DNA of 64,000 nucleotides, from positions 1,054,001-1,118,000 of the forward strand of contig NZ_CP049838.1 of assembly GCF_013085465.1 (NCBI RefSeq), read 5' to 3'. The translations under genes were made by a program, and so were the position numbers. Of this stretch, positions 1-52,986 are shown piece by piece; position 1 is the first letter of the stretch; every line of letters starts with the position of its first letter. The notes below the pieces were generated by a model. It did no database searches. It was not told the origin of the DNA and saw only the letters and a list, made by a program, of their open reading frames with translations. This DNA is from Streptomyces asoensis (lineage in GTDB: Bacteria; Actinomycetota; Actinomycetes; Streptomycetales; Streptomycetaceae).

Positions 1-2
1 CC

Positions 3-269
3 AGTGGTGGTCTCGACGAGTACGCCGTGGACGACCTCGTGCGCTCCGGGGCACCGATCGACACGTACGCCGTGGGCACCCGTGTCGGCGTGTCGGCCGA
101 CGCACCGTACCTGGACTCCGCGTACAAGCTGGTCGAGCCCGACGGCCACCCGGTGATGAAGCTCTCATCGGCGAAGGTGACGGCACCCGGCCGCAAACAG
201 GTCTTCCGCCGCCCCGGCTGCGCCGACGAACGAACCCCGTCCGGATCGCATCGGCCCGTACCGAGGTGA
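3..269 (+). pseudogene. pncB: Nicotinate phosphoribosyltransferase, C-terminal part only (cut by window edge, tail degenerate)
   Basis: The open frame runs in from the window edge and matches the conserved core of nicotinate phosphoribosyltransferase, which makes nicotinate mononucleotide for NAD salvage. Seen: a YAVGTRVGVSADAPYLDSAY segment followed by PVMKLSSAKVTAPGRKQVFR, typical of the phosphate-binding C-terminal half. After the FRRPG motif the protein becomes unrelated Ser/Pro/Arg residues and stops within about 17 residues, where the family normally continues for several dozen more. I therefore read it as a truncated gene, although the upstream part cannot be seen. Mycobacterial pncB2 belongs to the DosR dormancy regulon, and the next gene is also of a DosR-regulon family. 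Confidence 0.7.
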
Positions 270-280
270 GGAGGAAAGCG

Positions 281-568
281 ATGCCACATACGTTGGAATG
301 GACGGTTCGTCTTCATCTGTTCGAGGACGACGCGGGAACGACGAAGGCACATCTGACCCTGGACACCGGCACCACAGAACTCACCGGTCACGGGACCGCG
401 CACTGCCATCCGGCGGACTCGAACGTGCCGGAGATCGGTGACGAACTGGCAACGGGCCGGGCCATGAACGACCTGGCCAGGCAACTACTGAAGACCGCAG
501 AGCGCGACATCAAGGGCATGGGCGCACCGCAGCCACACGGCGGGGAGGTCGCCGGGTGGCCCACGTGA
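281..568 (+). CDS. DUF1876 protein (Rv1738-like dormancy protein)
   Basis: This is a 95-residue protein with one DUF1876 domain. Seen: an LEWTVRLHLFEDD opening strand, then HPADSNVPEIGDELATGRAM, which closely resembles the NPADRNVPEIGDEL segment of mycobacterial Rv1738, and a C-terminal helix ending near DIKGMG. Rv1738 is strongly induced in hypoxia and folds like ribosome hibernation factors; a ribosome-silencing role here is inference from that. The start is the ATG at 281 because GAGGAAAG lies just upstream. A longer in-frame extension to 266 would put the ribosome site inside the gene. It lies 11 bp after the broken pncB fragment. Confidence 0.85.
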   Translation: MPHTLEWTVRLHLFEDDAGTTKAHLTLDTGTTELTGHGTAHCHPADSNVPEIGDELATGRAMNDLARQLLKTAERDIKGMGAPQPHGGEVAGWPT

Positions 569-767
569 CCGACGGCGATCCCCAAGTCAGAAGTCGAGGG
601 ACCAGCCATGACACCTCCCGCGCACGGCACAGCAGAGGTGGGCTTCCGGCAGCCCTGCGGGAACTGTAGTCAGTCGGCGCAGCCTCCCAGGCTGATCGGT
701 CCCGTGCGGCTGCCCGTCGCGCGTGGCACGTTGGATACAGCACCATTCTGCGGAGAGGGCGGACGTC

Positions 768-1676
768 ATGCGAGCTCACCTCGGCGACCAACTCGTCATC
801 GAACGCACGACGACCGGCGCCGCCAAGCGCGACGGCGAGATCGTCGGACTCCATCACGAGGACGGAACGCCTCCTTACGACGTGCGCTGGTCGGACACGG
901 ACGAAGTGACGCTCGTGTTCCCCGGGCCCGACGCACACATCCGCCATCTCGAGCACGGCCGGCCCGAGAGCACCGGCACCCCCTCCGGCCCCGACACGGC
1001 CGAGGCGGAGGCCATGCCGGCCAGGGCCCCCGGCCCCGGTGACATCGGCCGACGCGTGGCCGTCGAACGCCACCGACAGCGGCTCAGCCGCGAGGAGACG
1101 GCCCGCCGCGCCCGAATGTCCCCCGGATACCTGGAGTACCTGGAGGAGCGGCCTGCCGACCCGAGTGTGGCGACCCTCATCAGGCTGGCCGACGCACTGG
1201 GCACCACGGTCACCACGCTGCGCGGCGGAGGAATGGATCTGCCACCCGGCCAAGGACAGGCACTGCTGCATCCTGAACTGCGGGACCTCGGCCCGGAGGA
1301 ATGCCGCACGTTGCTCTCCACCCACGGCGTGGGGCGCATCGCGGTGTCGGCGTCCGACGGCCGCCCGGCGGTCGTACCGGTCAACTACGAGGTCGTCGAT
1401 GACGCGATCGTCTTCCGGACCGCGCCGGACTCCACGCCCGCGGCAGCCGTCGGAACCGAGGTCGCCTTCGAGGTCGATCACATGGACGAGGCCCTGAGTC
1501 AGGGCTGGAGTGTCCTCGCCGTCGGCCCCGCGAGCGTCGTGACGGAGCCTGACTCCGTGCGCAGGCTCACCGAACACGCCCACACCACGCCATGGCCGGG
1601 TGGTGAACGCGAGATGTGGGTGTCGATCCGGCCCGCGCACCTCACGGGCCGCCGCATCACTCCAGCCGATGGATGA
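768..1676 (+). CDS. DUF1918 / XRE helix-turn-helix / pyridoxamine-oxidase-like protein
   Basis: This 302-residue three-domain protein begins with DUF1918 at residues 1-60 (MRAHLGDQLVIE, then EIVGLHHEDGTPPYDVRWSD). A XRE-type DNA-binding domain follows at about 85-150 (RRVAVERHRQRLSREETARRA, then SPGYLEYLEERPADPS). The last domain, about 165-300, is a split-barrel of the pyridoxamine 5'-phosphate oxidase type (GVGRIAVSASDGRPAVVPVNY). The ATG at 768 is chosen because DUF1918 starts there and GGAGAGGGCGG lies upstream; a GTG at 723 adds residues without homology. The family is common in Streptomyces stress clusters. The fusion suggests a flavin- or F420-responsive regulator, but the ligand is unknown. 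Confidence 0.85.
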   Translation: MRAHLGDQLVIERTTTGAAKRDGEIVGLHHEDGTPPYDVRWSDTDEVTLVFPGPDAHIRHLEHGRPESTGTPSGPDTAEAEAMPARAPGPGDIGRRVAVERHRQRLSREETARRARMSPGYLEYLEERPADPSVATLIRLADALGTTVTTLRGGGMDLPPGQGQALLHPELRDLGPEECRTLLSTHGVGRIAVSASDGRPAVVPVNYEVVDDAIVFRTAPDSTPAAAVGTEVAFEVDHMDEALSQGWSVLAVGPASVVTEPDSVRRLTEHAHTTPWPGGEREMWVSIRPAHLTGRRITPADG

Positions 1677-1753
1677 CCAGGCAGTCGCGGGCCGGGCCAG
1701 TGAAGAGCGCTTCCGTCCCGACTGCTGTTATCTCTGGCAGAGCCGTGCTTTCC

Positions 1754-2542
1754 CTGTTGAACCTGAGGGCCGCCGTCGCCCACGCGGGCTGGCACCCGGA
1801 AACCCTGCTGCTGCCCGACCTCGCCGACCGGGCCACTCCTTGCGAGCGTGCGGTTGGCCGGCCGTACGAACGGTGTGAGCGGCCTCGGCGCGCTGTATCC
1901 GGCGATCCGCCAACGGCACAGCAGCCGCTACCCGTTCGAGGAGAGACAGATCCCCGAGGTCGTGCGGGCGGCGCTCGCCGCGAGTGCTCGCGTCGAGGGA
2001 GCGGCACTGGCGTTTCCCGACTCATGGCATCTGTGGGAAGTACTGGAACTGGTTCAGGAAGCCGAGGCCCGCAACATCACCGACCGCGGCAGCGACCAGG
2101 ACCTGGCCCGGTGGACGCGTATCGACGCCCCGTCGGTGAGCACCGCCGACGACGGAGTCCCGCACTACGCCTTCGGACCGCGCAAGCGCGGGGGCAAGGC
2201 GCCCATGCGCGACTTCGCCGGCCGCCGGCACGCGGCGGGTCGTTACGCGGCGGACTTCGAGCAGAACCCTCAGCTGGCTCTCGTCAGCACGGATCACGAC
2301 CGCCCGGAGGACTGGCTCCGCGCCGGCCAGGCGATGGAACGCTCCTGCTGCTGGCCACCCACGAGGGCCTCGCCAGCTCCTTCGTGACCCAGCCTCTCGA
2401 ATGGAAGGACCTGCGCTGGCCTTTGCGTGACCCGATGGCCGGGACCGGCTACACACAGGTCCTGCTGCGCCTGGGCTGCGGCCCCAACGGTCCCGGCACG
2501 CCGCGCCGCCCTGTGTCGGAGGTACTCGACATCGAAGCCTGA
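1754..2542 (+). pseudogene. acg: Acg-type FMN nitroreductase, frameshifted and N-terminally truncated
   Basis: Three frames must be joined to read this gene. The first piece, NLRAAVAHAGWHPETLLLPD, starts near 1757. The second runs from about 1848 to 2335 (MRLAGRTNGVSGLGALYPAI, then YPFEERQIPEVVRAAL). The third runs from about 2340 to 2542 (LLLATHEGLASSFVTQPLEW, ending VSEVLDIEA). Together they match the C-terminal two thirds of the Acg (Rv2032) nitroreductase-like family, an FMN-binding dormancy protein. Frameshifts lie near 1840 and 2340, and the N-terminal FMN-binding part is absent. The gene is clearly inactive. It lies directly after the DUF1918 gene and before an insertion-sequence remnant. 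Confidence 0.8.
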
Positions 2543-2643
2543 CCCTGGACTGTCCACGTCCGGGGTTCACACCCGGACGTGGGGGCGGACCGTGACCCCG
2601 GGAGTGGTCATGTGCTCCTGGGCGCTCACCGCCCTCTCCTCGG

Positions 2644-3480
2644 CTAGCTGTATTGACCCGCAGGGTTGTTGACACGGCTGATGGGTGGTTGGCCGTCGAG
2701 TGCGGTGTGGCACCGGTGGTAGTTGTAGGTGTGGAGGAAGTCCGCCAGGGCTTCGGTGCGTTCGGCGTTGCTGGAGTACGGGCGCACGTATGCCCATTCG
2801 TCGAGCAGGGTGCGATTTAGGTGCTCCACCTTGCCGTTCGTCTGCGGGCGATAGGGGCGCGTGCCCTTATGGACGATGTCGGCGGCGCTGAGAGTCTGGC
2901 CGAACAGCGGGATCTGTAGCAGGAGCCGTTGTCGGTAAGGACGCGCTCGACGGTGATGCCGTGCTCGGCGAAGAAGATATTCGCACGCTGCTAGAAAGAG
3001 GCCGCGGTCTCTTTGCGTTCGTCGGTCAGAACCTCGCTGCACGCGAGCCGGGAGTGATCGTCGCCGGCTGTGTGGACGAACCTGTAGCCGATCACGGGAC
3101 TGCCGCCCCTACGCGCGTCGGTTGTGGCCTGCCGATTGCCGGCGGCCTGCTGGCGGGGCATGATCCGATGTCCGCCGCCGTCGGGAATGTTGCCGAGCTT
3201 CTTGATGTCGACGTGGACCAGTTCGCCGGGACGTGATCGTTCGTAGCGTCGGACGATCTGACCGGTGGGTCCAGCCGACCCCTGACGACGCCGGTCCATC
3301 CAGCGCGCGGTCATACAACCCCGGATCGCCTTCGGCTCGCCGGCGCCGTACCCATTTGTGGGCCGTGGTGCGGGAGACGCCCATTTCTTCGGCGACGTGG
3401 GCGATGGGGCTGCCAGCGCGGACCCCATCGACCAGGAGCCGTCTGCCGTGGATGGTCAGCCGGGCATGGGGATGGGGCAT
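2644..3480 (-). pseudogene. IS481-family transposase, broken by a stop and frameshifts
   Basis: Reading from 3480 downward, the N-terminal helix-turn-helix (MPHPHARLTIHGRRLLVDG, then HVAEEMGVSRTTAHKWVRR) is in one frame. The first catalytic Asp (GELVHVDIKKLG) is in a second frame. The C-terminal segment (RPYRPQTNGKVEHLNRTLLD, ending VNNPAGQYS) is in a third. Between them, just after KETAASF, is an in-frame stop near 2993. The second Asp (VLTDNGSCYRS) precedes another frameshift. The DDE residues are thus recognisable but no full protein can be made. I could not find convincing terminal inverted repeats, so element ends are unknown. Confidence 0.85.
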
Positions 3481-3616
3481 GGGAAACCTCTGGGATGGTG
3501 TGGAGTCTGGGCTTGTGCCCGAGGCCGCCGATCTGGTGATCGACGTCCTCGGGCGACAGAGGACGAGCCTTTGTGGGCGGCGAGCCAGGCCGGGCTGTCT
3601 GCGCGCCCCACTGGAT

Positions 3617-4477
3617 CTATTCGGCCCAGGCACGCTCCAGCTGAGTACGGAACGTGGCGGGCTTTCGCCCGATCAGCTCGGCCAGCGTCGAGTCGACGGC
3701 GGTGAACTCGCCATTCCGCGACGCGGCGAAGATGCTCAGCATCAGGTCGGCGATCGGGACCGGGGCGCCGTGCGCCAGGACCTGCTCTCGGAAGACGTCG
3801 TCGGGGACGACGGTGCGGGTGAAGGGCCGTCCGGTGGCCTCGGACGCGATCTCGGCGATGGTGTCGAAGTCGAGCGCCGCCGGGCCTGTGAGCGGCGGGG
3901 TGGGCCCCTCGAAGCGGGCCTCCTCGGCGAGGATCACCGCAGTGGCCTCGGCGAGGTCGTCGTGGGCGGTCCAGGCGACGGGGCCGTCGGCAGGGAGGGC
4001 GATGTCGCCGGTGTGGCGGGTGGGCTCCAGGAACTGCAGGGCGCTGGAGGCGTAGAAGCCGTTGCGCAGCGCGGTCCAGGGCAGGCCGGTGGCGTGCAGC
4101 AGGTCCTCGGTCTGGGCGTGGTCCCGGCATGCCTGGAAGCGGGCGTCGTGGGCGGCGCCCATCTGGCTGGTGTAGAGGATGCGGCCGACGCCGGCCTGCA
4201 CGGCGGCGTCGATGGCGGCGCGGTGGCCGCTGACGCATTCCTGGCCTGTGCGGTCGAGGGAGACGAGGAGCAGTTGCTCGGCGCCCTCGAAGGAGTGTAC
4301 GAGCGAGGTGGGGTCGTCGAAGCTGCCCTGCCGGACGCGGACGCCGCGGTCGGCGAGGTCCTGGGCCTTGGCGGGGTCGCGGACGCTGATGCCGACGCGG
4401 TTGGCGGGGGCGCGCTCCAGGAGGCGCTCGACGGTGCGGCGGCCGAGCTTTCCGGTGGCTCCGGTGACGATGATCAT
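3617..4477 (-). CDS. NmrA-like NAD(P)-binding oxidoreductase (quinone-reductase-2 type)
   Basis: This 286-residue protein starts MIIVTGATGKLGRRTVERLL, with the GxxGxxG dinucleotide-binding loop at residues 6-12. YTSQMGAA and the substrate-region NGFYASSALQFLEP follow, as in the NmrA/YtfG (quinone oxidoreductase 2) group of atypical short-chain dehydrogenases. These act as NAD(P)H-dependent quinone reductases or redox sensors in the cytosol. The ATG at 4477 has a GGAGAG site. It is divergent from a TetR gene 90 bp away, with two near-identical palindromes between them, so it is probably the regulated target. It is intact, unlike its neighbours on both sides. Confidence 0.85.
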   Translation of the reverse strand: MIIVTGATGKLGRRTVERLLERAPANRVGISVRDPAKAQDLADRGVRVRQGSFDDPTSLVHSFEGAEQLLLVSLDRTGQECVSGHRAAIDAAVQAGVGRILYTSQMGAAHDARFQACRDHAQTEDLLHATGLPWTALRNGFYASSALQFLEPTRHTGDIALPADGPVAWTAHDDLAEATAVILAEEARFEGPTPPLTGPAALDFDTIAEIASEATGRPFTRTVVPDDVFREQVLAHGAPVPIADLMLSIFAASRNGEFTAVDSTLAELIGRKPATFRTQLERAWAE

Positions 4478-4496
4478 TGAGCTCTCCGTAAACTGT

Positions 4497-4543
4497 TTCC
4501 GACGGAATCACAGTAACGGTAACACTGGAAATTTCCGATGGAA
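4497..4543. promoter_or_regulatory. Pair of TetR-type operators between divergent genes
   Basis: TTCCGACGGAA at 4497-4507 is a perfect palindrome around a central base. TTCCGATGGAA at 4533-4543 differs by one base. Their centres are 36 bp apart. They lie in the intergenic region of the NmrA-like gene (start 4477) and the TetR gene. The second site covers the upstream ATG at 4538, which supports the 4568 start for tetR. Binding by the adjacent TetR protein is inference. Confidence 0.65.
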
Positions 4544-4567
4544 CCAGATTCTCGGTACCATCGATTC

Positions 4568-5296
4568 ATGGCTACGCGCGACTCAACCGACAGCCCTCGG
4601 CGCCGCATCGTCCAGGCCGCCGTCGAGCTGCTGGAGAACGGCGGCCCTGACGCGGTGAGCACCCGCGCGGTCGCGGCCGCGGCCGGAATGCAGCCGCCGG
4701 CGATCTACCGCCTCTTCGGCGATAAGGAGGGGCTTCTTGAAGCCGTCGTCGAGCACGGCTACGCGCAGTTCCTGGAGAGAAAGCGCGCGCAGCTCGACCC
4801 CGCCCCACAGGACCCGGTGGAGGAGCTTCGCCGGGGCTGGGACATGGTGGTCGAGTTCGGGGTCTCCAGCCCCGAGCTGTTCGCGGTGATGAACCGGGCC
4901 GTCGGCCGGGGACCGGACGCAGCACACCGCGCGGGCTTGGAGATCCTCCATGGGCGGGTGCGTCGACTGGCGGCCGGGGGGTGGCTGCGGGTCGACGAGG
5001 AGCTGGCCGCCCAGATCATCCAGGCAACCGGCCAGGGCGCGGTCACCACCTGGCACTCCACCCCTGCGGACCGCCGCAATCCGGCGCTGTTGACCGTCCT
5101 GCGCGAGTCCATGGTCGCGGCTGTTACTCGCGCCGAGCCGGTGGTCCCCGCCTCGGAGTCCGGTCCCCCCGCGGCGGCCCGCGCGCTGCGCGCCGCCCTC
5201 CCCGACGGTGCCGATGTCCTCAGCGACGCCGAGCAGCGCCTGCTGCGTGAGTGGCTCACGCGCCTGGCGGCGGACGGTGGCGCGCCACATGCCTGA
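4568..5296 (+). CDS. TetR family transcriptional regulator
   Basis: This 242-residue repressor has an N-terminal helix-turn-helix (RRRIVQAAVELLENGGPDA, then STRAVAAAAGMQPPAIYRLF, residues about 10-60) and an all-helical ligand-binding C-terminal region. The ATG at 4568 is preferred over 4538 because the earlier ATG lies inside a palindromic operator and the homologous region starts at 4568. It is divergent from the NmrA-like reductase gene and probably represses both itself and that gene. The inducer is unknown; a quinone or electrophile would fit the neighbour. Confidence 0.88.
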   Translation: MATRDSTDSPRRRIVQAAVELLENGGPDAVSTRAVAAAAGMQPPAIYRLFGDKEGLLEAVVEHGYAQFLERKRAQLDPAPQDPVEELRRGWDMVVEFGVSSPELFAVMNRAVGRGPDAAHRAGLEILHGRVRRLAAGGWLRVDEELAAQIIQATGQGAVTTWHSTPADRRNPALLTVLRESMVAAVTRAEPVVPASESGPPAAARALRAALPDGADVLSDAEQRLLREWLTRLAADGGAPHA

Positions 5297-5673
5297 TCAC
5301 GCGTCAGGCGCCCTCGTGCAGGTTGAACCTCCCGAGGAGAGATCGTGCGATGAAGCGGCGTCCACGGGATGAGACGGTGGGCGACCACGCGACTCCGGCT
5401 GGCTTCCCCTTGCCCATAACGTGCCGCCAACCTTGATCACGCCGACTGTTAACAACGCTCGTGGTCAAGACACATCACATGTCCAGGTCCTTGAGGAGCG
5501 CGTCGGGTGGTTGGTCGGGCCGTACGTCTCCAGCGTTGTCGCGACCTGGCGCACCGCAACCCGCCGACGGCCACCCGATCCGAGCGCCCGCCCGTATGTC
5601 GCGGCGGCGCGCGGGGGGTGCGACGGTATTCACAGGGGGTCTGTCAGCAACGGGACGGAAGGCGGTGCCCCCG
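5297..5673. other. Gap without a recognisable gene
   Basis: About 380 bp between the TetR gene and the universal stress gene. An ATG at 5350 opens a frame of about 28 codons ending near 5436, with a GAGGAGA-like site upstream, but it has no recognisable homology. I see no clear promoter palindrome or terminator. Confidence 0.4.
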
Positions 5674-6573
5674 ATGGAACTCCCGCTGGTCGTGGGCGTC
5701 GACGGATCGGAATCCAGCCTGCTGGCGGTCGACTGGGCGGCGGACGAAGCCGCACGCCACGGACTGTCGCTGCGGCTCGTCCATGCCTCCCTCTGGGAGC
5801 GTTACGAAAGAGTCAGGCCCTCCTTCAGCACCGATCGCCCCGCCGGAGAGGTCATGGCGCAGGACATCGTCGCCTCCTGCGCGGAACGCGCCCGGCTTCG
5901 CGACCCCGACGTGAAGGTGTCCGCCGACGTAGTGGCCGCCGATGCGGTCTCCACGCTGCTGCGGGCCGGGTCCGAGGCGTTCGCCCTGGCCACGGGCGCA
6001 CGTGGGCGCGGCGAGGTCGCCGGGCTGCTGCTGGGGTCGGTCAGCCTCACGGTGGCGGCTCATGCCATGTGCCCGGTCGTCGTCGTCCGAGGCGAGGAGC
6101 GCAACCTCCGGGGGTCCCTCGGCCGGGTCGTGGTGGGAGTCGGCGCTGTGACCGGCGGCACGGGTGCCGTACGGTTCGCCGCCCGCGAGGCCGAGGCGCG
6201 GGGCTGCGCCCTGACCGCCGTACGGGCCTGGCGCAGTCCGGACCACGCGCCGGGCTCCCCTCCCGCGGAGTCCGTCCCGGGTGACCCCCGGCTCGCGACG
6301 GACACCGCGGGGACGCCCGAGGAGCAAGTCTCGGCTCACCTCGACGACGCGCTGCGCGAGGTCGTACGGGAGCACCCCGAGGTCGAGGTCAGCCGGCGCG
6401 CGGTCGAGGGCCCCGCCCACCGTGTCCTGCTGGAGGCATCGGCCGATGCCGACCTGATCGTCGTCGGCGCTCAGCGCCGGCACGGGCACTTCGGTCTGCA
6501 ACTCGGCAGCGTCGCCCACGCGCTGCTGCACCACTCCGCCTGCCCGGTCGCCGTCGTCCCTCACCTGGTCTGA
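5674..6573 (+). CDS. Universal stress protein, tandem UspA domains
   Basis: This 299-residue cytosolic protein has two UspA folds. Domain one (residues about 1-145) starts MELPLVVGVDGSESSLLAVD and ends in the ATP-binding pattern GARGRGEVAGLLLGSVS followed by CPVVVVR. Domain two (about 150-299) starts VVVGVGAVTGG and ends GAQRRHGHFGLQLGSVA, then CPVAVVPH. Both carry the G-2x-G-9x-G(S/T) nucleotide signature. The ATG at 5674 follows GGAAGGCGG and is where homology begins. Tandem UspA proteins such as Rv1996 and Rv2623 are DosR-regulon members, which fits this cluster. Confidence 0.9.
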   Translation: MELPLVVGVDGSESSLLAVDWAADEAARHGLSLRLVHASLWERYERVRPSFSTDRPAGEVMAQDIVASCAERARLRDPDVKVSADVVAADAVSTLLRAGSEAFALATGARGRGEVAGLLLGSVSLTVAAHAMCPVVVVRGEERNLRGSLGRVVVGVGAVTGGTGAVRFAAREAEARGCALTAVRAWRSPDHAPGSPPAESVPGDPRLATDTAGTPEEQVSAHLDDALREVVREHPEVEVSRRAVEGPAHRVLLEASADADLIVVGAQRRHGHFGLQLGSVAHALLHHSACPVAVVPHLV

Positions 6574-6625
6574 GGTCGCCGTACGGGCCCGGCTCCCCCG
6601 ACTTCCGAACTGAGGAGGGCCACGG

Positions 6626-9037
6626 ATGGCGGAGTGGACGTGGGAGTGGAAGGGGTACGACCCCGCTGCCGAACAGCTGCGGGAGTCGCTCTGCACGCTC
6701 GGCAACGGCTACTTCGCCACACGAGGTGCGGTGCCCGAGTGCCGGGCGGGCCTGGTGCACTACCCGGGAACCTACGCGGCCGGATGCTACAACCGCCCGG
6801 AGTCGACGGTTGCGGGACGACAGGTGGTGAACGAGGACCTGGTCAACCTGCCGAACTGGCTGCTCCTGCGGTTCCGCCTGCGCCGCGCCGAGGGTGCGTG
6901 GGGCCCCTGGTTCTCCCCTCATCCGCGCACCCTCCTGGACCACCGGCACACCCTGGATCTGCGCCACGCCACGCTCACCCGCGCCTTCCGCCACCGGGAC
7001 GAGAAGGCAGGTGTGGTCGCTGTCGAGCAGACCCGCCTGGTGCACATGGAAGATCCTCATCTGGCCGCGCTGCGGACGGTCTTCACCGCCGAGGACTGGT
7101 CGGGAGATGTCGAAATCGAGTCCTGCCTCGACGGTGAGGTACACAACGGCAATGTGCACCGTTACCGTGCCCTCAACCACCACCAGCTGACCCAGGTGCG
7201 GACCGGGGCGCGGGAGCCCAGCACGGTCTGGCTGACATGCCGGACCAGCACCTCCGACATCGGTGTCGCCATGGCCGCCCGGACGGTCGTCGCCGACCTG
7301 CCACCGGCCTCGTCGGAGCTCCGCCCAGGCCGCCACCGTGCCGTCCACCGCCTGGTGGTCCCGCTCGCTCCCGGCCGTCCCGTCGCCGTGGAGAAGACCG
7401 TGGCGGTCCACACCTCACGCGACACGGCGATCAGCGATCCTCTCGGGGCGGCGGTCGACCGGGTGTCCTCGGCCGCGGACTTCGCGGGCCTGCTGAACTC
7501 CCATGTCGCGGCCTGGGAGCGGTTGTGGCGGCGCGCGGAGATCCAGGTACCCGGTCAGTCCGGGCGAGTCCTGCGCTTCCACCTCTTCCACCTCCTACAG
7601 ACGCTGTCCCCGCACACCGCGGACCTGGACGTGGGCGTCCCGGCCCGGGGTCTGCACGGCGAGGCGTACCGCGGCCACGTCTTCTGGGACGAGCTGTTCG
7701 TCGTGCCGTACCTCAACCTGCACTTCCCGGAGGTCTCCCGGGCCCTGCTGAACTACCGGTACCGACGCCTCCCCCGGGCCTGCCGGGCCGCCGCCGCGAT
7801 CGGCCGGGCCGGGGCGATGTACCCCTGGCAGAGCGGCAGCGACGGCCGCGAGGAGACCCAGCAGTGGCACCTCAACCCCCGCTCGGGCCGCTGGCTGCCG
7901 GACCACTCCCATCTCCAGCACCACGTGGGCTCGGCGATCGCGTACAACGTGTGGCAGTACTGCGAGGCCACCGGTGACACCGAGTTCCTGCACACCAGAG
8001 GTGCGGACATGCTGCTGCAGATAGCCCGCTTCTGGGCGGACCTCGCGGTCTTCGACCCCGCGACGGAGCGCTACCACATCCGCGGAGTCGTCGGCCCCGA
8101 CGAGTACCACGACGCCTACCCGGGCGCCGCTCAGCCAGGGCTGGAGGACAACGCGTACACCAACGTCACCGCCGCCTGGGTGCTCGGCCGCGCCCTGGAT
8201 CTACTGCGGCGCCTTCCCGTCTGGCGCCGGGAGGAGCTGCGCGATCGCATCCGGCTGGACGACGACGAACTTCCGAAGTGGGAGGAGATCTCCCGACGGT
8301 TGTGGGTGCCGTTCCACCGTGGCGTGATCAGCCAGTTCGAGGGCTACGACGATCTGGCCGAGCTGGACTGGGACGCCTACCGAACGCGCTACGACGGCAT
8401 CCGGCGGCTGGACCGGATCCTGGAGGCCGAGGGCGACACGGTCAACCGCTATAAGGCGTCCAAGCAGGCCGACGTCCTCATGCTCGGCTACCTGTTCTCA
8501 CCCGGCGAGCTGCGGCAGCTGTTCAGGCGTCTCGGCTACGACCTGGACGACGAGGTCTGGCGCGGGACCGTCGACTATTACCTCCGGCGCACCAGCCACG
8601 GCTCCACACTCAGCGGCCTCGTCCACGGCCTGGTCCTCGCCAAGGCCAGACGAGCCGAGGCATGGCAGTACGTCCAGGAGGCCCTGGAGGCAGACATCGC
8701 CGACATACAGGGCGGCACAACTGGCGAAGGCATTCATCTCGGGGCCATGGCCGGAACCCTCGACCTGGTCCAGCGCGGCCTGACCGGACTGGAGACGCGC
8801 GAGGACGCGCTGTGGCTGGACCCCGTGCCTCTTCCCGCACTCTCCGAGTACGGATTCTCGCTGCGCTATCGCGGCCACTGGGGGGTGCGCATACGGCGCC
8901 TGAGCGGGCGGCTGGAGATCGGCGTGCCCGACTCGGAGGAGTCAGCGATCCGCGTGGTGCTGGCGGACCGGGCCGTGACCGTGGCACCTGGGGAGACCTG
9001 CACGCTCGTACTGTCGGCGGATGATCCGAGCGAATGA
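6626..9037 (+). CDS. Glycoside hydrolase family 65 protein (kojibiose/trehalose/maltose phosphorylase-like)
   Basis: This 803-residue cytosolic protein has the family layout: an N-terminal beta-sandwich (LCTLGNGYFATRGAVPE at about 25-40), an (alpha/alpha)6 barrel and a small C-terminal beta domain. The catalytic acid is expected at Glu493 in VVGPDEYHD. Nearby family signatures are GHVFWDELFVVPYLNLH and YRRLPRACRAAA. Members phosphorolyse or hydrolyse alpha-glucosides; which one cannot be told from the sequence. It follows the universal stress gene by 52 bp with a GAGGAGGG site. A role in mobilising trehalose-type reserves during dormancy is inference. Confidence 0.88.
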   Translation: MAEWTWEWKGYDPAAEQLRESLCTLGNGYFATRGAVPECRAGLVHYPGTYAAGCYNRPESTVAGRQVVNEDLVNLPNWLLLRFRLRRAEGAWGPWFSPHPRTLLDHRHTLDLRHATLTRAFRHRDEKAGVVAVEQTRLVHMEDPHLAALRTVFTAEDWSGDVEIESCLDGEVHNGNVHRYRALNHHQLTQVRTGAREPSTVWLTCRTSTSDIGVAMAARTVVADLPPASSELRPGRHRAVHRLVVPLAPGRPVAVEKTVAVHTSRDTAISDPLGAAVDRVSSAADFAGLLNSHVAAWERLWRRAEIQVPGQSGRVLRFHLFHLLQTLSPHTADLDVGVPARGLHGEAYRGHVFWDELFVVPYLNLHFPEVSRALLNYRYRRLPRACRAAAAIGRAGAMYPWQSGSDGREETQQWHLNPRSGRWLPDHSHLQHHVGSAIAYNVWQYCEATGDTEFLHTRGADMLLQIARFWADLAVFDPATERYHIRGVVGPDEYHDAYPGAAQPGLEDNAYTNVTAAWVLGRALDLLRRLPVWRREELRDRIRLDDDELPKWEEISRRLWVPFHRGVISQFEGYDDLAELDWDAYRTRYDGIRRLDRILEAEGDTVNRYKASKQADVLMLGYLFSPGELRQLFRRLGYDLDDEVWRGTVDYYLRRTSHGSTLSGLVHGLVLAKARRAEAWQYVQEALEADIADIQGGTTGEGIHLGAMAGTLDLVQRGLTGLETREDALWLDPVPLPALSEYGFSLRYRGHWGVRIRRLSGRLEIGVPDSEESAIRVVLADRAVTVAPGETCTLVLSADDPSE

Positions 9038-9144
9038 GCGTGGCGTCGGCGCATCCGCACCGTCACGCGCCGCACACGGCCTAGGCTTGGCCCGGGCTCC
9101 GCAGCGGGTTTCCGTTTCATGCCAGAGCGCCGTGGGAGACGCGG

Positions 9145-10023
9145 ATGAAGTGGTTGGTCTCGCTGGTCGGTGTCGGACTCGTCATGGTGACCCTGCGGGA
9201 CCTTTTCCACACCCTCTGGCACCCCACGCGCCACGGTGGTCTGAGCCGCCTCGTGATGACGGCACTGTGGCGCCTTGCCCGGCGTTTCCGTCCGCCCGGC
9301 CGCGTGGTCGGGCTCGTCGGGCCGCTGGCCATGGTCACGGTCGTGAGCATGTGGGCCGTCACCGTCGTCCTCGGCTGGGCGATCGTCTACTGGCCCCACA
9401 TGCCCGGGGCGTTCACCTTCGCCCCCGGTTCCCAGGCGGCGCAGGAACCGGCGCTACTCGACTCCGTGTATCTGTCGCTCGTCACGGTGGCCACCCTGGG
9501 GCTGGGTGACATCGCACCCGACGAGGGCTGGCTCCGTCTGGTCTCACCGCTCGAAGCCCTCATCGGTTTCGCCCTCCTGACGGCCACCGTCTCCTGGGTG
9601 CTGGAGATCTATCCGGCGCTGACCCGCAGGAGGGTCCTGGCCGTCCGACTGGCTCTGCTGCGCGACGCCGAGCCCACAACGCGGCAGATCGACTGCACCG
9701 CAGGAGCACTGCTGCTGGACAGCCTGGCCACCGACGTCTCACGCGTCCGCATCGACTTCACCCAGTACGCCGAGGCGTACTACTTCCACGACGGGGAGGA
9801 CCACTCGTCGCTGGCGGCCATGGTCGGCTACGCCGCCGTACTCGCCCAGCGCGGGCAGGCGGCGGAACGGCCGGAGGTGCGACTGGCCGGCGCGCTGCTC
9901 GCAGGCGCGTTGAAAGACCTCGCCGCCATCCTCGACCAACGTTTCCTCCATACGGGCGGCCCGCCGACGGAAGTGTTCGCCGCTTACGCCGCCGACCACG
10001 GCCGCGACGGCGCTCAGCCGTGA
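9145..10023 (+). CDS. Two-pore-domain-type potassium channel family membrane protein
   Basis: This 292-residue membrane protein has three hydrophobic segments: residues about 3-20, 53-75 and 130-155. Between the last two lies a pore loop, SLVTVATLGLGDIAPDEGWL. Its selectivity filter reads T117-L-G-L-G-D122 instead of the usual TVGYGD. The C-terminal 130 residues are cytosolic, helical, and contain FTQYAEAYYFHDGEDHSSLA. Ion_trans_2-type channels conduct potassium; whether LGLGD keeps selectivity is unknown. It follows the GH65 gene by 107 bp and is the last intact member of the stress cluster. Confidence 0.8.
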   Translation: MKWLVSLVGVGLVMVTLRDLFHTLWHPTRHGGLSRLVMTALWRLARRFRPPGRVVGLVGPLAMVTVVSMWAVTVVLGWAIVYWPHMPGAFTFAPGSQAAQEPALLDSVYLSLVTVATLGLGDIAPDEGWLRLVSPLEALIGFALLTATVSWVLEIYPALTRRRVLAVRLALLRDAEPTTRQIDCTAGALLLDSLATDVSRVRIDFTQYAEAYYFHDGEDHSSLAAMVGYAAVLAQRGQAAERPEVRLAGALLAGALKDLAAILDQRFLHTGGPPTEVFAAYAADHGRDGAQP

Positions 10024-10097
10024 ACGAGCAAGGGTGGCAATCCGAGAAACGGGGTTCCGTCCTCAAGGGGCGGCCAGTCAAAGGGACGGGAGCGGTT

Positions 10098-11020
10098 ATG
10101 GCACCCAGCACGCAGAGCCGTCCGGGCACACCTCAGCGACGGCCGTGAACCGCCGCGGTGACAGCCAGCGGCCCGCTGCCGAGGCAAGCCGACGCTCGGA
10201 GGCGACTCCCGCGACAGGTCTGTCGTCGGAGGAGGCCGCAAGGCGTCTGACGCGCCATGGGCCCAACGAGATCCCCTCGGAACTGCGGACCCCGGTGTGG
10301 CGGCGGGTGCTGCAGCAACTGCGTGACCCGCTGATCCTCGTCCTGCTCGTGGCGGCCGCCCTGACGGTCGCCACCGGCGATCTCTCCGACGCCTCCGTCA
10401 TCCTGCTCGTGATCACCGTGAACACCGTGGTCGGCGTCGTGCAGGAGGTGCGGGCGGAAGAGGCGGTACTGGCCCTGTCCGCCATGAGCGCCCCGGCCGC
10501 CAGGGTCGTGCGAGACGGTGAGGAACTCTCCGTCCCGGCATCCGAGGTGGTTCCGGGCGACCTGGTCCTGGTGGCCGAGGGGGACATCGTCCCTGCGGAC
10601 GGAGAGGTGCTCGCTGCGACGTTGCTGCCGGCGGACGAGTCGTCGTCGACAGGTGAGTCCGCTCCGGTGGAGAAGGCCCCCAACAGTGGCGGGACGAAGG
10701 GGGTGCTGTCGGCTGGGACGGTCATCGTTCGGGGCCGCGGACGGGTCGTCGTGACCGCCACCGGTGCCGACAGCGCCCTCGGCCGGATCGCCGCGCTCAT
10801 GGGCGCCGCGCCCGGTCTCACCCCGTTGCAGCACCGGTTGGCGAACTTCGGCCGTACTCTCGCGATGGTCACCGTCGCACTGTGCGCGGTCGTGCTCGCC
10901 CTCGCGCTGGTGCGCGGACAGCCCGCGGAGCTGATGATCGTAGCGGCGATCAGTCTTGCCGTCGCTGCCGTTCCGGAGTCCCTCCCGGCCGTGGTGACGC
11001 TCGCTCTCGCTCTACCGTGC
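10098..11020 (+). pseudogene. P-type cation-transport ATPase (CtpF-like), N-terminal part only
   Basis: Seen: an N-terminal actuator region (GLSSEEAARRLTRHGPNEIP), the first two membrane helices, VPGDLVLVAEGDIVPADGEV, the SSTGESAPVEK loop and the fourth membrane helix with the VPESLPAVVTLALAL ion site. The gene then breaks at about 11018, before the phosphorylation motif DKTGTLT. The rest, some 550 residues, is missing. The best start is the ATG at 10098 (GGGAGCGG upstream), but that frame stops at 10148. The ATPase frame is entered only by a shift, so the 5' end is damaged too. Mycobacterial CtpF is a DosR-regulon calcium-type ATPase. Confidence 0.8.
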
Positions 11021-12102
11021 GGGTCTGCGCCGGCATCGGGTGGCACGGCAGGCCCTACACCGAAGAGGTGGTCCTCGCCGACCTCGATCTCAGCGGCGAC
11101 TCCGGCCGCTCCGGCGCCCAGGTGTTCGCGGGTCGTCAAGGACTGCTGTTCCTCTTCCCGCTCGGAGAGCAGGCCGCCTGGCGGCTGCTGGCCACACGGG
11201 CGTCCGCCGGCGGGTCCGGACTGGACTTCGGCCAGCTCGGAACCGCCGTCCCGCATACCGATCTGCAGCGACTTCTGAGCGACGTCGGGCTGGACGCCCG
11301 GATCGAGCGCCTCGCGTGGTCCGCGCGGGTGCCCCTCCAGTGCAGCCTCGCCGCACGATTCCGCCGCGGGCGGCTCTTCCTCGCGGGGGACGCGGCTCAC
11401 AACTGTTCACCGGCCACCGGCCAGGGCATGAACGCCGGCATCCAGGACGCGGTGAATCTCGGCTGGAAGCTCGGCTTTGCGGCGAACTGTTCCGGAGGCG
11501 AGGCCGCGGGCGGGCTCGGTGCCGAAGTGCTGCTCGACTCCTACGACACGGAGCGCCGGCCGGCCACCCACCGACGGCTGATCCTCACGCACACGGTGTT
11601 CTGGGCAGAGGCATCGACCGGCCGGATCCCCTCGTGGCTGCGCGCGGTGGCCGCTCCGCGCGCAGCCCCGGCCGTGCCGATCCTCCTGGACCGGCGACGG
11701 CTGGTCGCCGAAGGCATCCGCTTCATCTCCCAACTGCGGGTGAACTACGGGCACAGCGCCCTGTCGGTGGAGGGAAGACCGCGCCTGCATGGTGCACCTC
11801 GCCCGGGAGACCGCCTACCGGACGCGACCGTCAGCGTCGGGGGGCCTCCACAACGGTTGCACGGGCTGCTCGCCGGTGCGGGCGTGCACGTGCTGCTACA
11901 GCGCGACGCCGCCCCGCCGCCGGACGCGGTGCTCGGTCCCCAAGTCACTGTCCTCCGGCTGAGGAACAGCCCCGGCCGCGGTCTGATCGCGGTCCGCCCG
12001 GACGGGCATGTCGACTTCCGGTGCGGAACCACCGACGCGGCCGGGCTGAGCAACTGGCTCTCACTGATCGGCGCATCGGCATCACCATCAAGCCGACCGT
12101 GA
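11021..12102 (+). pseudogene. FAD-dependent aromatic monooxygenase (PheA/TfdB type), C-terminal part
   Basis: From just after the ATPase break, in a different frame, the sequence reads VRVCAGIGWHGRPYTEEVVL, then FRRGRLFLAGDAAHNCSPAT and GQGMNAGIQDAVNLGWKLGF. This is the second FAD-contact motif and following helix of class A flavin hydroxylases, ending in a thioredoxin-like domain (VRPDGHVDFRCGTTD). The N-terminal GxGxxG half is missing and there is no start codon of its own. A single deletion joining two genes explains the junction. Substrate cannot be assigned. Confidence 0.8.
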
Positions 12103-12302
12103 ACGCCGCGAAAACGTCCGATGCCACGACGTGTCGGACATGGGCCCGATGGGAAAGCCCGCCCTGAAAGGCTCAGTTCAGCGGCGTTCTGCCCCTGAGT
12201 AGCCCCCGAGCCTGAGGTCATGAGGAGCCCGACAACCTGTGACTCTCCCGGTTGCCCGGCCTCCTTCGAGAGCGACGGTGGAAGAAGGTGGCCGAGGCGG
12301 CC

Positions 12303-12665
12303 ATGCGAGCACTCGTCTACCACGGCCCCGGACTGACGTCCTGGGACCCGGTCACGGATCCAGTCGAAGCCCCGCCCGACGTGATCGTACGCGTCGACGC
12401 CATAACCATCTGCGGCGCTCACCTACGCATCCGGCGCGGAACCCTACCCGAGGTCCTCGGAAACCTGATCAACGGAACACAGGCCGACGTCGTACAAGTG
12501 CCCTTCGCCGAAAACTCCTCCACCGGCGGCCCGGTGCCCTGACGCTGGAGGACGCAGTACTGCCCGCCGAGATCCTCCTCACCGCCTACGAAGTCGGAGT
12601 ACGGAACGGACACGTGGGCCCCGACGACACCGTCGTCGTGGTGGGCGCCGGTCCCGTGGGCTGTT
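12303..12665 (+). pseudogene. Zinc-dependent alcohol dehydrogenase, internally deleted and truncated
   Basis: Three pieces of one medium-chain dehydrogenase are recognisable. The N-terminus (MRALVYHGPGLTSWDPVTDP, then VIVRVDAITICGAHLRIRRG) runs to about 12450. After a missing stretch there is NLINGTQADVVQVPF. In another frame follow LEDAVLPAEILLTAYEVGV and VVVVGAGPVG, ending at about 12665. The catalytic His region, the structural zinc loop and most of the cofactor domain are absent. The normal CGTD motif reads CGAH. Zinc alcohol dehydrogenases are frequent in Streptomyces dormancy-type clusters. The gene is dead. Confidence 0.75.
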
Positions 12666-12687
12666 GCTGGGGCTCGCTGGTGTTGAG

Positions 12688-13390
12688 TTATGCAACTGGA
12701 ATGGGACTTGAAGCTGCGGGATGTGTATCGATCCAGGACAACCCCCCTAGGTCGAGTCGTCGGCGTGCACGCGTGACGGCGACGTATGCGAGGCGGGCGT
12801 CAGTGTCGTTGACGGGTTCCGGGATGGGACGGCCCTCGGCGTCGTGCTGGTCGGTGTCCTTGGGAGGTGGGAAGTCGTCGCCGATCCGGACGGTTGCCCA
12901 TTCATGCCCCTTGGCCTTGTGGGCTGTGGACACGGTCACGTCAGCATGGTCCTCGTCGGTGAGTTCGTCGAGTGCGGCCAGGATGGCGTCGGGGCCGTGC
13001 GTATCGACGAGGTCGACGAAGGGCTGGAGGTCGCCTCCTGCCGGATCGTAGGTCACGTAGTCCTGTACTTCGCCCCAGGAGGCGAAGAGGACGAGTTCGG
13101 GGTGGCTGGTGCGGCGTCCTTCCTTGAGGTCGCGAGCTGCGAGCGCCAGCGAGGCGAGCGTGTGCCCGCCGCGAGCCAGGGCGACGCGGCGCCCTTCGGA
13201 GAGGAGGCGCATGACTTCGGCCATGGCGCCGATGTTGGCGCGGCACAGCACTGCATCCGGGTTGGCCACGTCTCCGACCTCGGTAGGGATGGTCTCGCTT
13301 CCGGTCAGGCGGATGGGTGCCTCCGCAAGTTCGAGCCAGCGGTTGGCTTGTTCGGCAAGGAGAGGGCCGAAGCGGAAGGACGCTGTTGGG
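12688..13390 (-). pseudogene. UvrD-like DNA helicase, C-terminal fragment
   Basis: Reading downward from about 13390: FRFGPLLAEQANRWLELAEA, then APIRLTGSETIP, NPDAVLCRANIGAMAEVM, VTVSTAHKAKGHEWATVRIG (helicase motif V region) and DARLAYVAVTRARRRLDLG (motif VI). These belong to the C-terminal helicase lobe of a UvrD/REP superfamily 1 helicase. There is no start codon with a ribosome site and the motor's N-terminal ATP-binding lobe is missing. Its upstream end is joined out of frame to a KAP NTPase gene. The C-terminal end (WIDTHPAASSPIPVA) seems near the natural end. Confidence 0.7.
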
Positions 13391-14225
13391 CGTGCCCGAC
13401 CAACTGCTTGTAGTCATCTTCCTGTTCACACCGGCGTTGTGACAGCAAGAGGGCGATGAAGGCGCCCGCCTCGTCCGTGCTGATGCGCGGCAGCGACAGC
13501 GGGAGTTGAACGATCTTCTCCAGGTAACGGAGCGCGAACTGCTCTCCGCGGCCCGTGGCGTCAAGGCTGACGGCGATGGACTCCCGCACCATCTCCTGAT
13601 CAGCCGCCAGGACGAACGCCACCTTCTTGACGGACAGGAACAGCTTGATGGCCTCCAGAGTGGCCATCACTGCGTCCGGCAGGCACCGGTCGAGATCGTC
13701 CACCAGAACAACCAGACGCTTTAGGGGCGCCAAGTCCTGGAGCAGCTTGGCGAACTCACTGCGGAATCCCGCCAGGCTCTTGGCGTCCTCCCTAGACCGG
13801 GGCGTGAACGCTTTGACGAGCTCTTCGGTTTGTGCCACCAGTCGGCCGCGGGCCACGCTGGCCGCGACACGTGACCAACTGATGCGCTCCAGCAATCCTT
13901 TGACGGAATCCCCGAGGTCTTCGTCCGGGTAGGCGGTCAGCAGATCCTGCAGGACCTCACCGATGACAGCGCCGCGCACGTCGAACTGGTCGTCGAACTC
14001 CCACGGATCGAGCCGGATCACGCGGTACCCGGATTCCTGGTCCAGCGCTTCATGCAGGAGGCCGAGGACGGTGGATTTCCCCCCGCCCCAGGGAGCGTTG
14101 ATTCCGATGGTCACGGGGTCCAAAGACGGCGAATGCAGGGCAGCCACAACGGTGTCGACGATCGAGGTGAATCCCAGAAGATCAACGGTCGTCGGATTGT
14201 CGTCCCACAGCTGCAATTCGCTCAT
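13391..14225 (-). pseudogene. KAP-family P-loop NTPase, 3' end lost
   Basis: The protein starts MSELQLWDDNPTTVDLLGF. A Walker A motif, GINAPWGGGKSTVLGLL, lies at about residues 42-58 and a Walker B, LKRLVVLVDDLDRCLPDAV, at about 163-181. LFLSVKKVAFVLAADQEMV follows, all typical of KAP (PifA-like) NTPases. After EDDYKQLVGHAQQ, at about 13390, the homology ends and the frame runs 30 residues into helicase DNA before stopping. The usual C-terminal half is missing. KAP NTPases often occur in mobile or defence contexts. The N-terminal half could still be expressed, but function is unlikely. Confidence 0.7.
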
Positions 14226-14871
14226 CAGGTGCCCCCCGGCAGGCCGATCCGCGCGCTCACCGCTTCACCTCGCCGCCGGTCGGGTCTCAGCGACCCTCTC
14301 AGGAGGCAACGCAGCGCTACCCCGGTAGCCGCCGAGGTGATCGAGTACATGCAAAAGAATTCGGTGCCAGCATCACCGCCGCCTTCTGCAACAAAGCCAT
14401 GCGTATCACAGCACTGCCGTGACCTCAGGATGCGACACACCACCCGGCGTGCCGACGTTGTGATCAGCCCTGACGACGCCGCCCCACCCAGCCGGCCAGA
14501 CGACGTGCGCCTGGCCGCGCCCGAACAGCCCCGCACCGGCGCCCCCGGGTACGAAGCGCTCGTGTCGGCGCACCCAGCGAGGCCGACCTTGGCCGCGGCC
14601 ACCTATTCCGCTTACATCGACGACGAAGTCTCTACGCGGCGCAACTCGGCAGGTTTTGTGACCAGAACCTGCCGCTTGGCGCCTCTGCGGCCTCCAACAT
14701 CGCCGAGGGGACACATACACACCACTTCAGCGCGATAAGCCGTCCACCGAGAGCAGCAGATCAGAGTCGGTGGCGCACACGGAGAGACTCGGCGCCGATC
14801 AGACCGAGCCGCCATCGCCAGTGCCAACTATCCCTCTTTTGTGCCAACTAAAAATCCTCGTCACAAGCAGG
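14226..14871. other. Gap without a recognisable gene
   Basis: About 650 bp between the KAP remnant and the acyl-CoA dehydrogenase. Open frames exist on both strands but none matches a known family or has a convincing ribosome site. The short direct repeat GTGCCAACTA occurs twice, near 14820 and 14841. Given the debris to its left, this is probably degraded DNA. Confidence 0.4.
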
Positions 14872-52352: not shown

Positions 52353-52398
52353 TGACGCTCATGTGGGCACTCGTACGCGTGACGGCGAGGAGGTCGAC

Positions 52399-52986
52399 AT
52401 GCGAGGCCGGGTGCGTGGCTGGCGCCGGCGGGGCAATCCGCTGCGGCGCCGGTCGGATGTGCTGGAGGCGTGGACGGCGCTGGTCGTCGCCGTGCTGCTG
52501 CTGGTCGCCGTGCCGCTGGCCGGGGCACTCGCCGGCCGGTGGGGCCATGCAGACGCCCAGGCGGTCGCGGACCGGCTGCGGGCCGAACGCCACCGTGTAC
52601 GGGTCGAGGTCGTCGGCCACATACCCGAGACCGTGCCCTCGGTCGAGGGCGTCAGGCAGCAGACGTTCCGGGTGACCGTGCGGTGGACCCCGCCGGGTGA
52701 ACACGCGCGGACGGCCACCGCCCGGGTCCCGGCGGGCACGCGCACGGGCGAGGTGGTGGACGTGTGGTTCGACACGCGGGGCCGGAGCGTCGCACCGCCG
52801 CCGACCGACACGCTGGTGTGGCAGCACGCCTTCACCATGGGTGTGTGCGCGGCCGGGGGTACCGCCGCCGTGGTGCTGCTGGGGCACGTCGTGATCCGCC
52901 GGGTGGCGATGCGGCACCGGCTGGGCGAGTGGGAGCGGGAGTGGGCCCGCACGGAACCCCAGTGGACCCGCCGCAGGCCCGCCTGA
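52399..52986 (+). CDS. Rv1733c-like two-helix membrane protein
   Basis: This 195-residue protein begins with a basic segment and the family motif NPLRRRSDVLEAWTALVVAV. Membrane helix one is at about 22-48. An outside beta domain (QQTFRVTVRWTPPGEHARTA) leads to helix two at about 140-168 and a basic cytosolic end with HRLGEWEREWARTEPQWTRR. This matches the Rv1733c family, whose mycobacterial member is a DosR-regulon antigen of unknown function. GAGGAGGT precedes the ATG. It lies 40 kb away from the other dormancy-type genes. Confidence 0.8.
   Translation: MRGRVRGWRRRGNPLRRRSDVLEAWTALVVAVLLLVAVPLAGALAGRWGHADAQAVADRLRAERHRVRVEVVGHIPETVPSVEGVRQQTFRVTVRWTPPGEHARTATARVPAGTRTGEVVDVWFDTRGRSVAPPPTDTLVWQHAFTMGVCAAGGTAAVVLLGHVVIRRVAMRHRLGEWEREWARTEPQWTRRRPA

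Follow-up and report, generated by a model that had tools for sequence, protein, structure and literature searches.

The window analysed here, a stretch of 64,000 nucleotides at positions 1,054,001-1,118,000 of the single-contig chromosome of Streptomyces asoensis (10,044,300 bases), opens with a row of whole and broken genes from families of the DosR dormancy regulon of Mycobacterium tuberculosis. Its first base lies inside a gene cluster, of which the window shows only the right-hand end; the core of that cluster, an OsdR/OsdK (DosR/DosS-like) regulon, lies further left. Family assignments in the window were made by Pfam and NCBIfam profile matches. The region from 990 to 1,068 kb, left of the window and into its first part, was examined with genes called by a simple codon-usage script, and gene names resting only on these calls were read by eye from the translations. 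For comparison, public genomes were scanned with one protein of the row, DUF1918-XRE-PPOX, as bait, which gave 78 loci. The reference locus is L058 of Streptomyces sp. IBSBF 2953, where this protein is 93% identical; the locus of S. asoensis itself is L037, and its core stretches are L035 and L036.

Unless stated otherwise the features lie on the plus strand. At the left edge stands a remnant of pncB (window -277 to 239, of which 1..239 are inside the window), which has lost both ends and keeps codons 189-361 of 462. It is joined in frame behind the truncated end of a usp gene left of the window; the fusion open reading frame (ORF) matches NF009131 at 193-357, and the truncated usp also carries a TAG. 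An intact Rv1738-like gene follows (281..568; DUF1876, Pfam PF08962, Rv2632c-like; E 2e-29), the product of which is nearer to the solved Rv1738 (4wpy, 57 bits) than to the solved Rv2632c (2fgg, 39 bits). Of hsp20 a 5' remnant is left (608..669), and the sole HSP20 match found in the genome lies at 4.03 Mb. The next gene (768..1676) is intact and encodes a DUF1918 domain, an XRE helix-turn-helix and a C-terminal PPOX flavin/F420-type domain, as seen from profile matches; its 25-bp leader block (721..745) was defined by block comparison of 72 leaders. The PPOX domain matches structure 6eci and the DUF1918 domain matches Rv2302 (2a7y), and the protein is likely to be a local redox-responsive regulator. 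Behind it, the remnant of acg (1752..2542) has no start and keeps codons 68-329 in three pieces and more than one frame. An insert (2650-5478) separates acg from an intact tandem, two-domain Usp gene (5674..6573; nearest solved structure TB31.7), which is the UspC of the array. Intact genes for a GH65 glycoside hydrolase/phosphorylase (6626..9037) and an ion channel (Ion_trans_2; 9145..10023) come next, both named by family match. The CtpF-type P-type ATPase is represented by an N-terminal piece (10034..11013; codons 1-236 of the 832-codon L058 frame), cut where it abuts the C-terminal piece of a FAD monooxygenase (11014..12102; family match). Fragments of a zinc alcohol dehydrogenase (ADH) paralogue (12301..12655) form the right edge of the remnants. 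No match to the hrp1 gene of the array was found in L037.

A preliminary description of this DNA had named pncB, acg, the ATPase and the ADH as broken, and DUF1876, DUF1918/XRE, UspA, GH65 and the channel as intact. Both lists agree with the data above, the five intact genes being all open; the preliminary description had overlooked the deletion in hsp20, the loss of pncB at both its ends, the insertion relative to L058 and the PPOX domain of the DUF1918-XRE protein. It had also counted six DosR-type gene families. The families and their kinship with the DosR regulon are borne out, but the sixth gene, an Rv1733c-family gene at 52.4 kb (52363..52986; NF050032, 176 bits), lies outside the array. 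Its product is 34% identical to the L058 array member and is one of three found in the S. asoensis genome; the gene is a paralogue and not the array's own member.

L058 holds every member of the array. Its order is ADH, an AAA gene (which we take to be Rv2004c-like), Usp, a further Usp, Rv1733c, pncB, Rv1738, hsp20, DUF1918-XRE-PPOX, acg, Usp, GH65, channel, ctpF, hrp1 and SDR. The closest solved match of its Hrp1 is Rv2626c (E 2e-47); its Hsp20 matched generic small heat shock proteins, and no HspX (Rv2031c) chain was recognised among 20 matches. Compared with L058, S. asoensis has four deletions. The first, of 1471 bp (L058 6774-8244), removed the 3' end of usp, a regulatory box at L058 6937, Rv1733c and the start of pncB; the second (about 275 bp) removed the end of pncB, the third (432 bp) nearly all of hsp20, and the fourth (218 bp) the start of acg. 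In addition, 88 bp were replaced by the 2829-bp insert, which carries a decayed IS481-type transposase in pieces (2644..3672, minus strand), an NmrA-like NAD(P)-binding reductase (3617..4477, minus strand) and a TetR-family regulator (4538..5296), the latter two with open frames and identified by ORF and family match. Since the pncB, hsp20 and acg regions are arranged in L059 and L061 as they are in L058, the losses are on the side of S. asoensis. In L059 a FAD-binding N-terminus was seen by eye downstream of SDR, so that the loss of the rest of ctpF may be one long deletion.

We searched a 1.3-kb query over the first junctions in 392 genomes of the genus (S. asoensis included), 333 of which gave some match; two candidates were scored per genome, weaker matches lying outside the alignments listed. 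Among the alignments listed, the query was aligned over its full length to S. asoensis only, and those of the other 391 genomes end near query positions 229 and 729, that is, at the junctions, with an overrun of at most 23 bases. The deletions therefore look private to the S. asoensis lineage within the sampled genomes. Repeat-mediated deletion was considered and is unsupported: the longest words shared at five junctions have 3-5 bases, against a chance mean of 4.0 and a 95% point of 6. Related losses were seen elsewhere. In genome G130 a usp end and part of Rv1738 are near neighbours, separated by about 0.6 kb of other sequence, which probably reflects another loss of Rv1733c-pncB. In S. hirsutus (L060, 8798-9100) Rv1733c and most of pncB are lost with breakpoints different from those of S. 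asoensis, and an OsdR box is retained before the pncB remnant and Rv1738, which makes this locus a useful contrast.

The array was then surveyed by tblastn in 75 of the 78 loci (bait at least 60% identical and on the expected strand; the other three were dropped). Because the loci were collected by means of the bait gene, its retention carries no information. At least three further members are found in 40 of the 75 loci, and 38 of these 40, L058 itself included, keep the L058 order. In relatives the rightward run of the array starts at Rv1733c. Truncated or split members away from the locus ends occur in 21/75 loci (28/75 in a looser count that admits cuts at locus ends), so erosion of the array is common. 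Opposite-strand genes with CBS domains are interleaved in many of the loci, L061, L064, L079 and L113 among them. An OsdR-like regulator or a piece of one (at least 60% identity) lies within the fetched stretch in five of the 78 loci (L066, L075, L089, L115 and L133). Among plasmid records, 33 match the DUF1918 gene, the only query used there, and two cover at least 80% of it.

What precedes Rv1733c and other array genes in relatives was analysed with a weight matrix built from the OsdR box as given in the accessible text of PMC5069765. Expected numbers of sites were taken from shuffles for the upstream stretches of relatives, and from Markov-resampled sequence for the core of S. asoensis. Loci with an Rv1733c at least 50% identical and with enough upstream sequence were used. 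An OsdR-type site lies within 350 bp upstream of Rv1733c in all 25 loci so tested, scoring at least 13 in 24 of them (0.0 expected from shuffles). When the matrix was re-run after removal of two training sites resembling the Rv1733c box, all 25 loci still had a site scoring at least 10, and in 24 loci this site lies between -155 and -205 (about -170), compared with 81 of 1500 random stretches. The box is commonly AGGGACYTTCGGCCCY, the left half of which we take to be of the mycobacterial GGGACTT type. Sites scoring at least 11 upstream of other array genes are rarer, yet above shuffles: 6/32 for UspA, 8/42 for UspC, 7/40 for Rv1738 and 11/75 for DUF1918. When a wider stretch was considered, sites were present in all 24 loci that have Rv1733c, in 11 of the 19 that have other members but not Rv1733c, and in 7 of the 26 that have no member; random 1.1-kb stretches held a site in 280 of 1540 cases. 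In S. asoensis, positions 1-13500 of the window hold no OsdR/DosR-type site scoring at least 9 (1.8 expected; best score 8.8), in keeping with the preliminary description, which had seen no DosR-box palindrome locally. Within 1,048-1,068 kb the only site scoring at least 10.5 is at 1,048,037, outside the array.

The preliminary description had also proposed a search for a DevR/DevS pair and its boxes; a DosR-like pair and typical boxes were found about 12-42 kb left of the window, in the core of the regulon at 1,010-1,050 kb, so the kinship with the DosR regulon extends beyond what that description had noticed. The osdR gene (1,041,613-1,042,302) is open, and its best solved match is DevR/DosR (3c3w, E 9e-81), followed by VraR (E 9e-42). 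The osdK gene (1012349-1014058), found by protein search, is open to its stop codon and has a DLHD H-box; its product matches the haem-GAF domains of DosT (E 7e-48, with an aligned HHPPM stretch) and DevS (E 2e-42) as well as the DosT/DevS ATPase domains, and is a predicted haem-GAF sensor kinase of the DosS/DosT class. OsdR-type sites scoring at least 14 number 10 in 1,010-1,050 kb, against 0.1 expected, and the 20 kb further left contain one; three near-perfect core sites were also recovered in a genome-wide pattern search. By position, the core sites lie upstream of PPDK/osdK, a CBS gene/GH65 piece, ADH, an acyl-CoA synthetase-GNAT gene, DoxX-like and Usp genes, PFL, an antiporter (before arginine deiminase)/Crp-like pair, GAPDH and osdR. 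The core has an acg of its own (1,039,209-1,040,195), which is whole, over the curated cut-off and 56% identical to the acg of the L058 array. Taken together, the OsdR core looks functional in S. asoensis.

Some further features of the core were noted. In S. asoensis about 28 kb lie between osdK and osdR; in some sampled relatives (L049, L052) the kinase is directly behind the regulator. The best-scoring OsdR box is followed immediately by a second, truncated GH65 gene with the N-terminal domain (1015224-1016012), 54% identical to the GH65 of the window over 249 residues. An OTC-like ORF beside a carbamate kinase gene appears short by eye. In a regulator search of 61 genomes, many carry a DevR-like regulator of 65-68% identity besides or instead of a closer one; in S. 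asoensis, osdR stands alone among the regulator matches listed (down to about 1e-47).

A second conserved element of the array is the 25-bp leader block in front of the DUF1918-XRE-PPOX gene. With up to seven mismatches it occurs in 44 of 72 leaders (71 relatives and S. asoensis), at -47 in 38 of them; 10 leaders are identical to the consensus, and the copy of S. asoensis is unchanged. A search for it as a motif of a wider regulon gave no other good site across 990-1118 kb, the runner-up scoring 2.9 against 46.2. Four further hits were seen elsewhere in the loci of relatives, three at -47 of bait genes that had not been used for training (L128, L129 and L134) and one in L135. The leader is probably the gene's own promoter or an operator/autoregulatory site. 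On this reading the DUF1918-XRE-PPOX regulator is probably still made in S. asoensis, and it may now be the main local control.

From the observed anatomy, homologies, box conservation and deletions we conclude that the left end of the window is quite probably the eroded right-hand array of an OsdR/OsdK cluster, the core of which is apparently intact, and that one deletion took the box, Rv1733c and the start of pncB. Drawing on the box, the gene order and published work on OsdR, the following scheme can be proposed. OsdK, with its haem GAF domain as the sensor, would respond to low oxygen or nitric oxide by phosphorylating OsdR. Phosphorylated OsdR would then switch on Rv1733c-pncB-Rv1738-hsp20, and the genes behind would be expressed by read-through or from promoters of their own. 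In S. asoensis the box was lost with Rv1733c and the pncB start in the 1.47-kb deletion, and the pncB end, hsp20, acg and ctpF were disrupted by the other deletions and the insertion. The surviving genes would then no longer answer to OsdR, and DUF1918-XRE-PPOX would be transcribed from its conserved leader. A wider claim is that Streptomyces has a second OsdR operon of 'distal' DosR members (Rv1733c, PncB, Rv1738 and Hsp20, with Acg, CtpF and Hrp1 behind them) following a near-fixed box of mycobacterial style. In S. asoensis, on this view, the array became uncoupled from oxygen regulation when the box was lost and is now governed by the DUF1918-XRE-PPOX protein, made from a 25-bp promoter of its own; this would be a natural severing of a regulon, seen at an early stage. 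This wider claim is possible, but we put it forward tentatively and consider it somewhat doubtful as a whole.

Several observations weigh against these conclusions. The 25 Rv1733c loci are related and are not independent trials. With 58 sites over the whole genome against 62 for its reversed control, a loose box pattern shows no enrichment, so the argument from boxes depends on the clustered strong sites. UspA, UspC, Rv1738 or DUF1918 have boxes of their own in some relatives. Eight of the 19 relatives that lack Rv1733c and have other members show no box in the examined stretch, which means that the unit can exist without it. In S. asoensis a weak OsdR-like site is still present (688..703, no strand assigned); it scores 6.6, is identical in L058 and falls under any useful threshold. 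In many relatives an opposite-strand CBS gene stands between hsp20 and DUF1918, which disfavours simple read-through at this place and weakens that part of the scheme. The small frameshifts in acg could be sequencing errors, but the deletions and the insertion hardly could. Finally, the ratio of non-synonymous to synonymous substitution rates (dN/dS) does not point to any relaxation of constraint since the box was lost, so the genes downstream may have kept a use.

The preliminary description had gone further and suggested that the survivors reveal which members still matter, that is, that they are kept by selection since they function without the rest. In pairwise comparison with L058 the five downstream survivors have dN/dS values of 0.06-0.38 and no stops, and the unchanged DUF1918 leader fits such selection too. 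However, the pieces of pncB, acg and ctpF have similar values (0.13-0.45). When changes were polarised with L059 (the channel, absent from L059, was left out, and ctpF contributed few changes), the ratio of non-synonymous to synonymous changes in the survivors was 51:66 in the S. asoensis lineage and 32:45 in that of L058 (p=0.88); in the broken genes it was 15:23 and 6:15 (p=0.57), and the two whole genes to the left of the deletion gave 24:51 and 18:35 (p=0.85). Outlying dN/dS values were 0.87 for the ctpF piece against L059, from a partial overlap, and 0.62 for acg between L058 and L059. Nor does retention in relatives (66-67 loci) cleanly separate the members kept in S. asoensis, which are intact in 44% (Rv1738), 34% (UspC), 25% (GH65) and 22% (channel), from those it has lost, at 36% (Rv1733c), 27% each (pncB, hsp20 and acg), 10% (hrp1), 7% (ctpF) and 6% (SDR). 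Thus dN/dS, from few sites, shows no special constraint on the survivors and gives no support for selective survival; it fits recent damage, and too little time may have passed for a difference to show. We regard selective survival as unlikely.

Decay of the whole dormancy regulon of the strain, the view closest to the title of the preliminary description, would account for the several broken members of the array, the truncated GH65 copy of the core and the short OTC-like ORF. It is rendered rather improbable by the open osdR and osdK, the whole core acg and the 10 core boxes scoring at least 14; what is decaying is therefore not the regulon as a whole but its second, collinear array at one edge. 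The preliminary description had also held that intact copies elsewhere would count against it. Such copies were found for acg (the 56% identical paralogue), ADH (whole) and Usp (many), and no close second copy was found for the array's pncB (best 39%) or ctpF (P-type ATPases at 32-41%, in pieces). That the genes were never one unit and gathered by chance from unrelated sources is very unlikely: Streptomyces chromosome arms are known to reshuffle, and the bait gene stands without the array in many loci, but the order is collinear in nearly all loci with three or more members and the position of the box is nearly fixed. We give hardly any credence to assembly or sequencing artefacts as the cause of the breakages. 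Base errors might underlie the small shifts in acg, but the deletions have mapped junctions, the insert is 2.8 kb long, the genome is a single contig, and members are truncated or split in the loci of relatives as well.

If the eroded-array conclusion holds, the known dormancy parallel between Streptomyces and mycobacteria reaches beyond the neighbourhood of the regulator and takes in a second array with several signature DosR families, and the conserved box of this array is directly testable. S. asoensis is then a natural experiment, in which a regulatory site is lost and several array genes remain; it also cautions against taking gene loss for selection when the loss appears so recent. As to the neighbourhood, just right of the remnants (window 12688-14264) a C-terminal piece of a UvrD helicase was found by Pfam, and a P-loop (KAP-like) NTPase was seen by eye on the minus strand.

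The OsdR regulon itself is already published: the OsdR/OsdK regulon of Streptomyces coelicolor comprises SCO0167-SCO0219 (Urem et al. 2016, PMC5069765, as far as its accessible text goes). What is added here is the array, its conserved box and the loss of that box. The S. asoensis cluster resembles the S. coelicolor system in its DosR-like regulator, DosT-like kinase and AGGGCCGATCGGCCCT-type boxes, and in its Usp, ADH, PPDK, nitroreductase and PPOX genes. The box AGGGACCTTCGGCCCC, found before Rv1733c in many relatives, is the one given there for SCO0167 and SCO0216. Unlike the osdR-osdK operon of S. coelicolor, osdK here is distant from osdR and divergent from PPDK. No nitrate reductase genes were recognised by eye among the called genes, no search aimed at nitrate reductase having been made. 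In the accessible parts of PMC5069765 the target table does not contain Rv1733c, pncB, Rv1738, hsp20, ctpF or hrp1 by those names (the comparison being by name), the words 'hsp20' and 'nicotinate' do not occur, and only the core regulon near osdR is described as conserved with mycobacteria. Beyond that paper, the open-access literature searched yielded no account of such an array in Streptomyces. If the wider claim is true, more of the regulon is common to Streptomyces and mycobacteria than this published 'core only' view holds.

The likeness to the DosR regulon of M. tuberculosis is based on matches to solved structures, namely those of DevR, DosT/DevS, Rv1738, Rv2626c, TB31.7 and Rv2302 and the Acg nitroreductase structure 2ymv (presumably mycobacterial), and to family models for Rv1733c and Acg. 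Links to Rv2004c, Rv2006, PncB2 and Rv0569 are ones that we presume. The half box upstream of Rv1733c is, as in the mycobacterial consensus, of the GGGACTTT type. As in the DosR (DevR) regulon described in the accessible text of PMC3095998 and PMC4090907, a DevR-like regulator is accompanied by a DosT/DevS-like kinase, and the Rv1738, Rv1733c, Acg, Usp, Hrp1, CtpF-type and Hsp20 families are shared. Unlike M. tuberculosis, Streptomyces has these members in one collinear array, with DUF1918 fused to XRE and PPOX and with GH65 alone.

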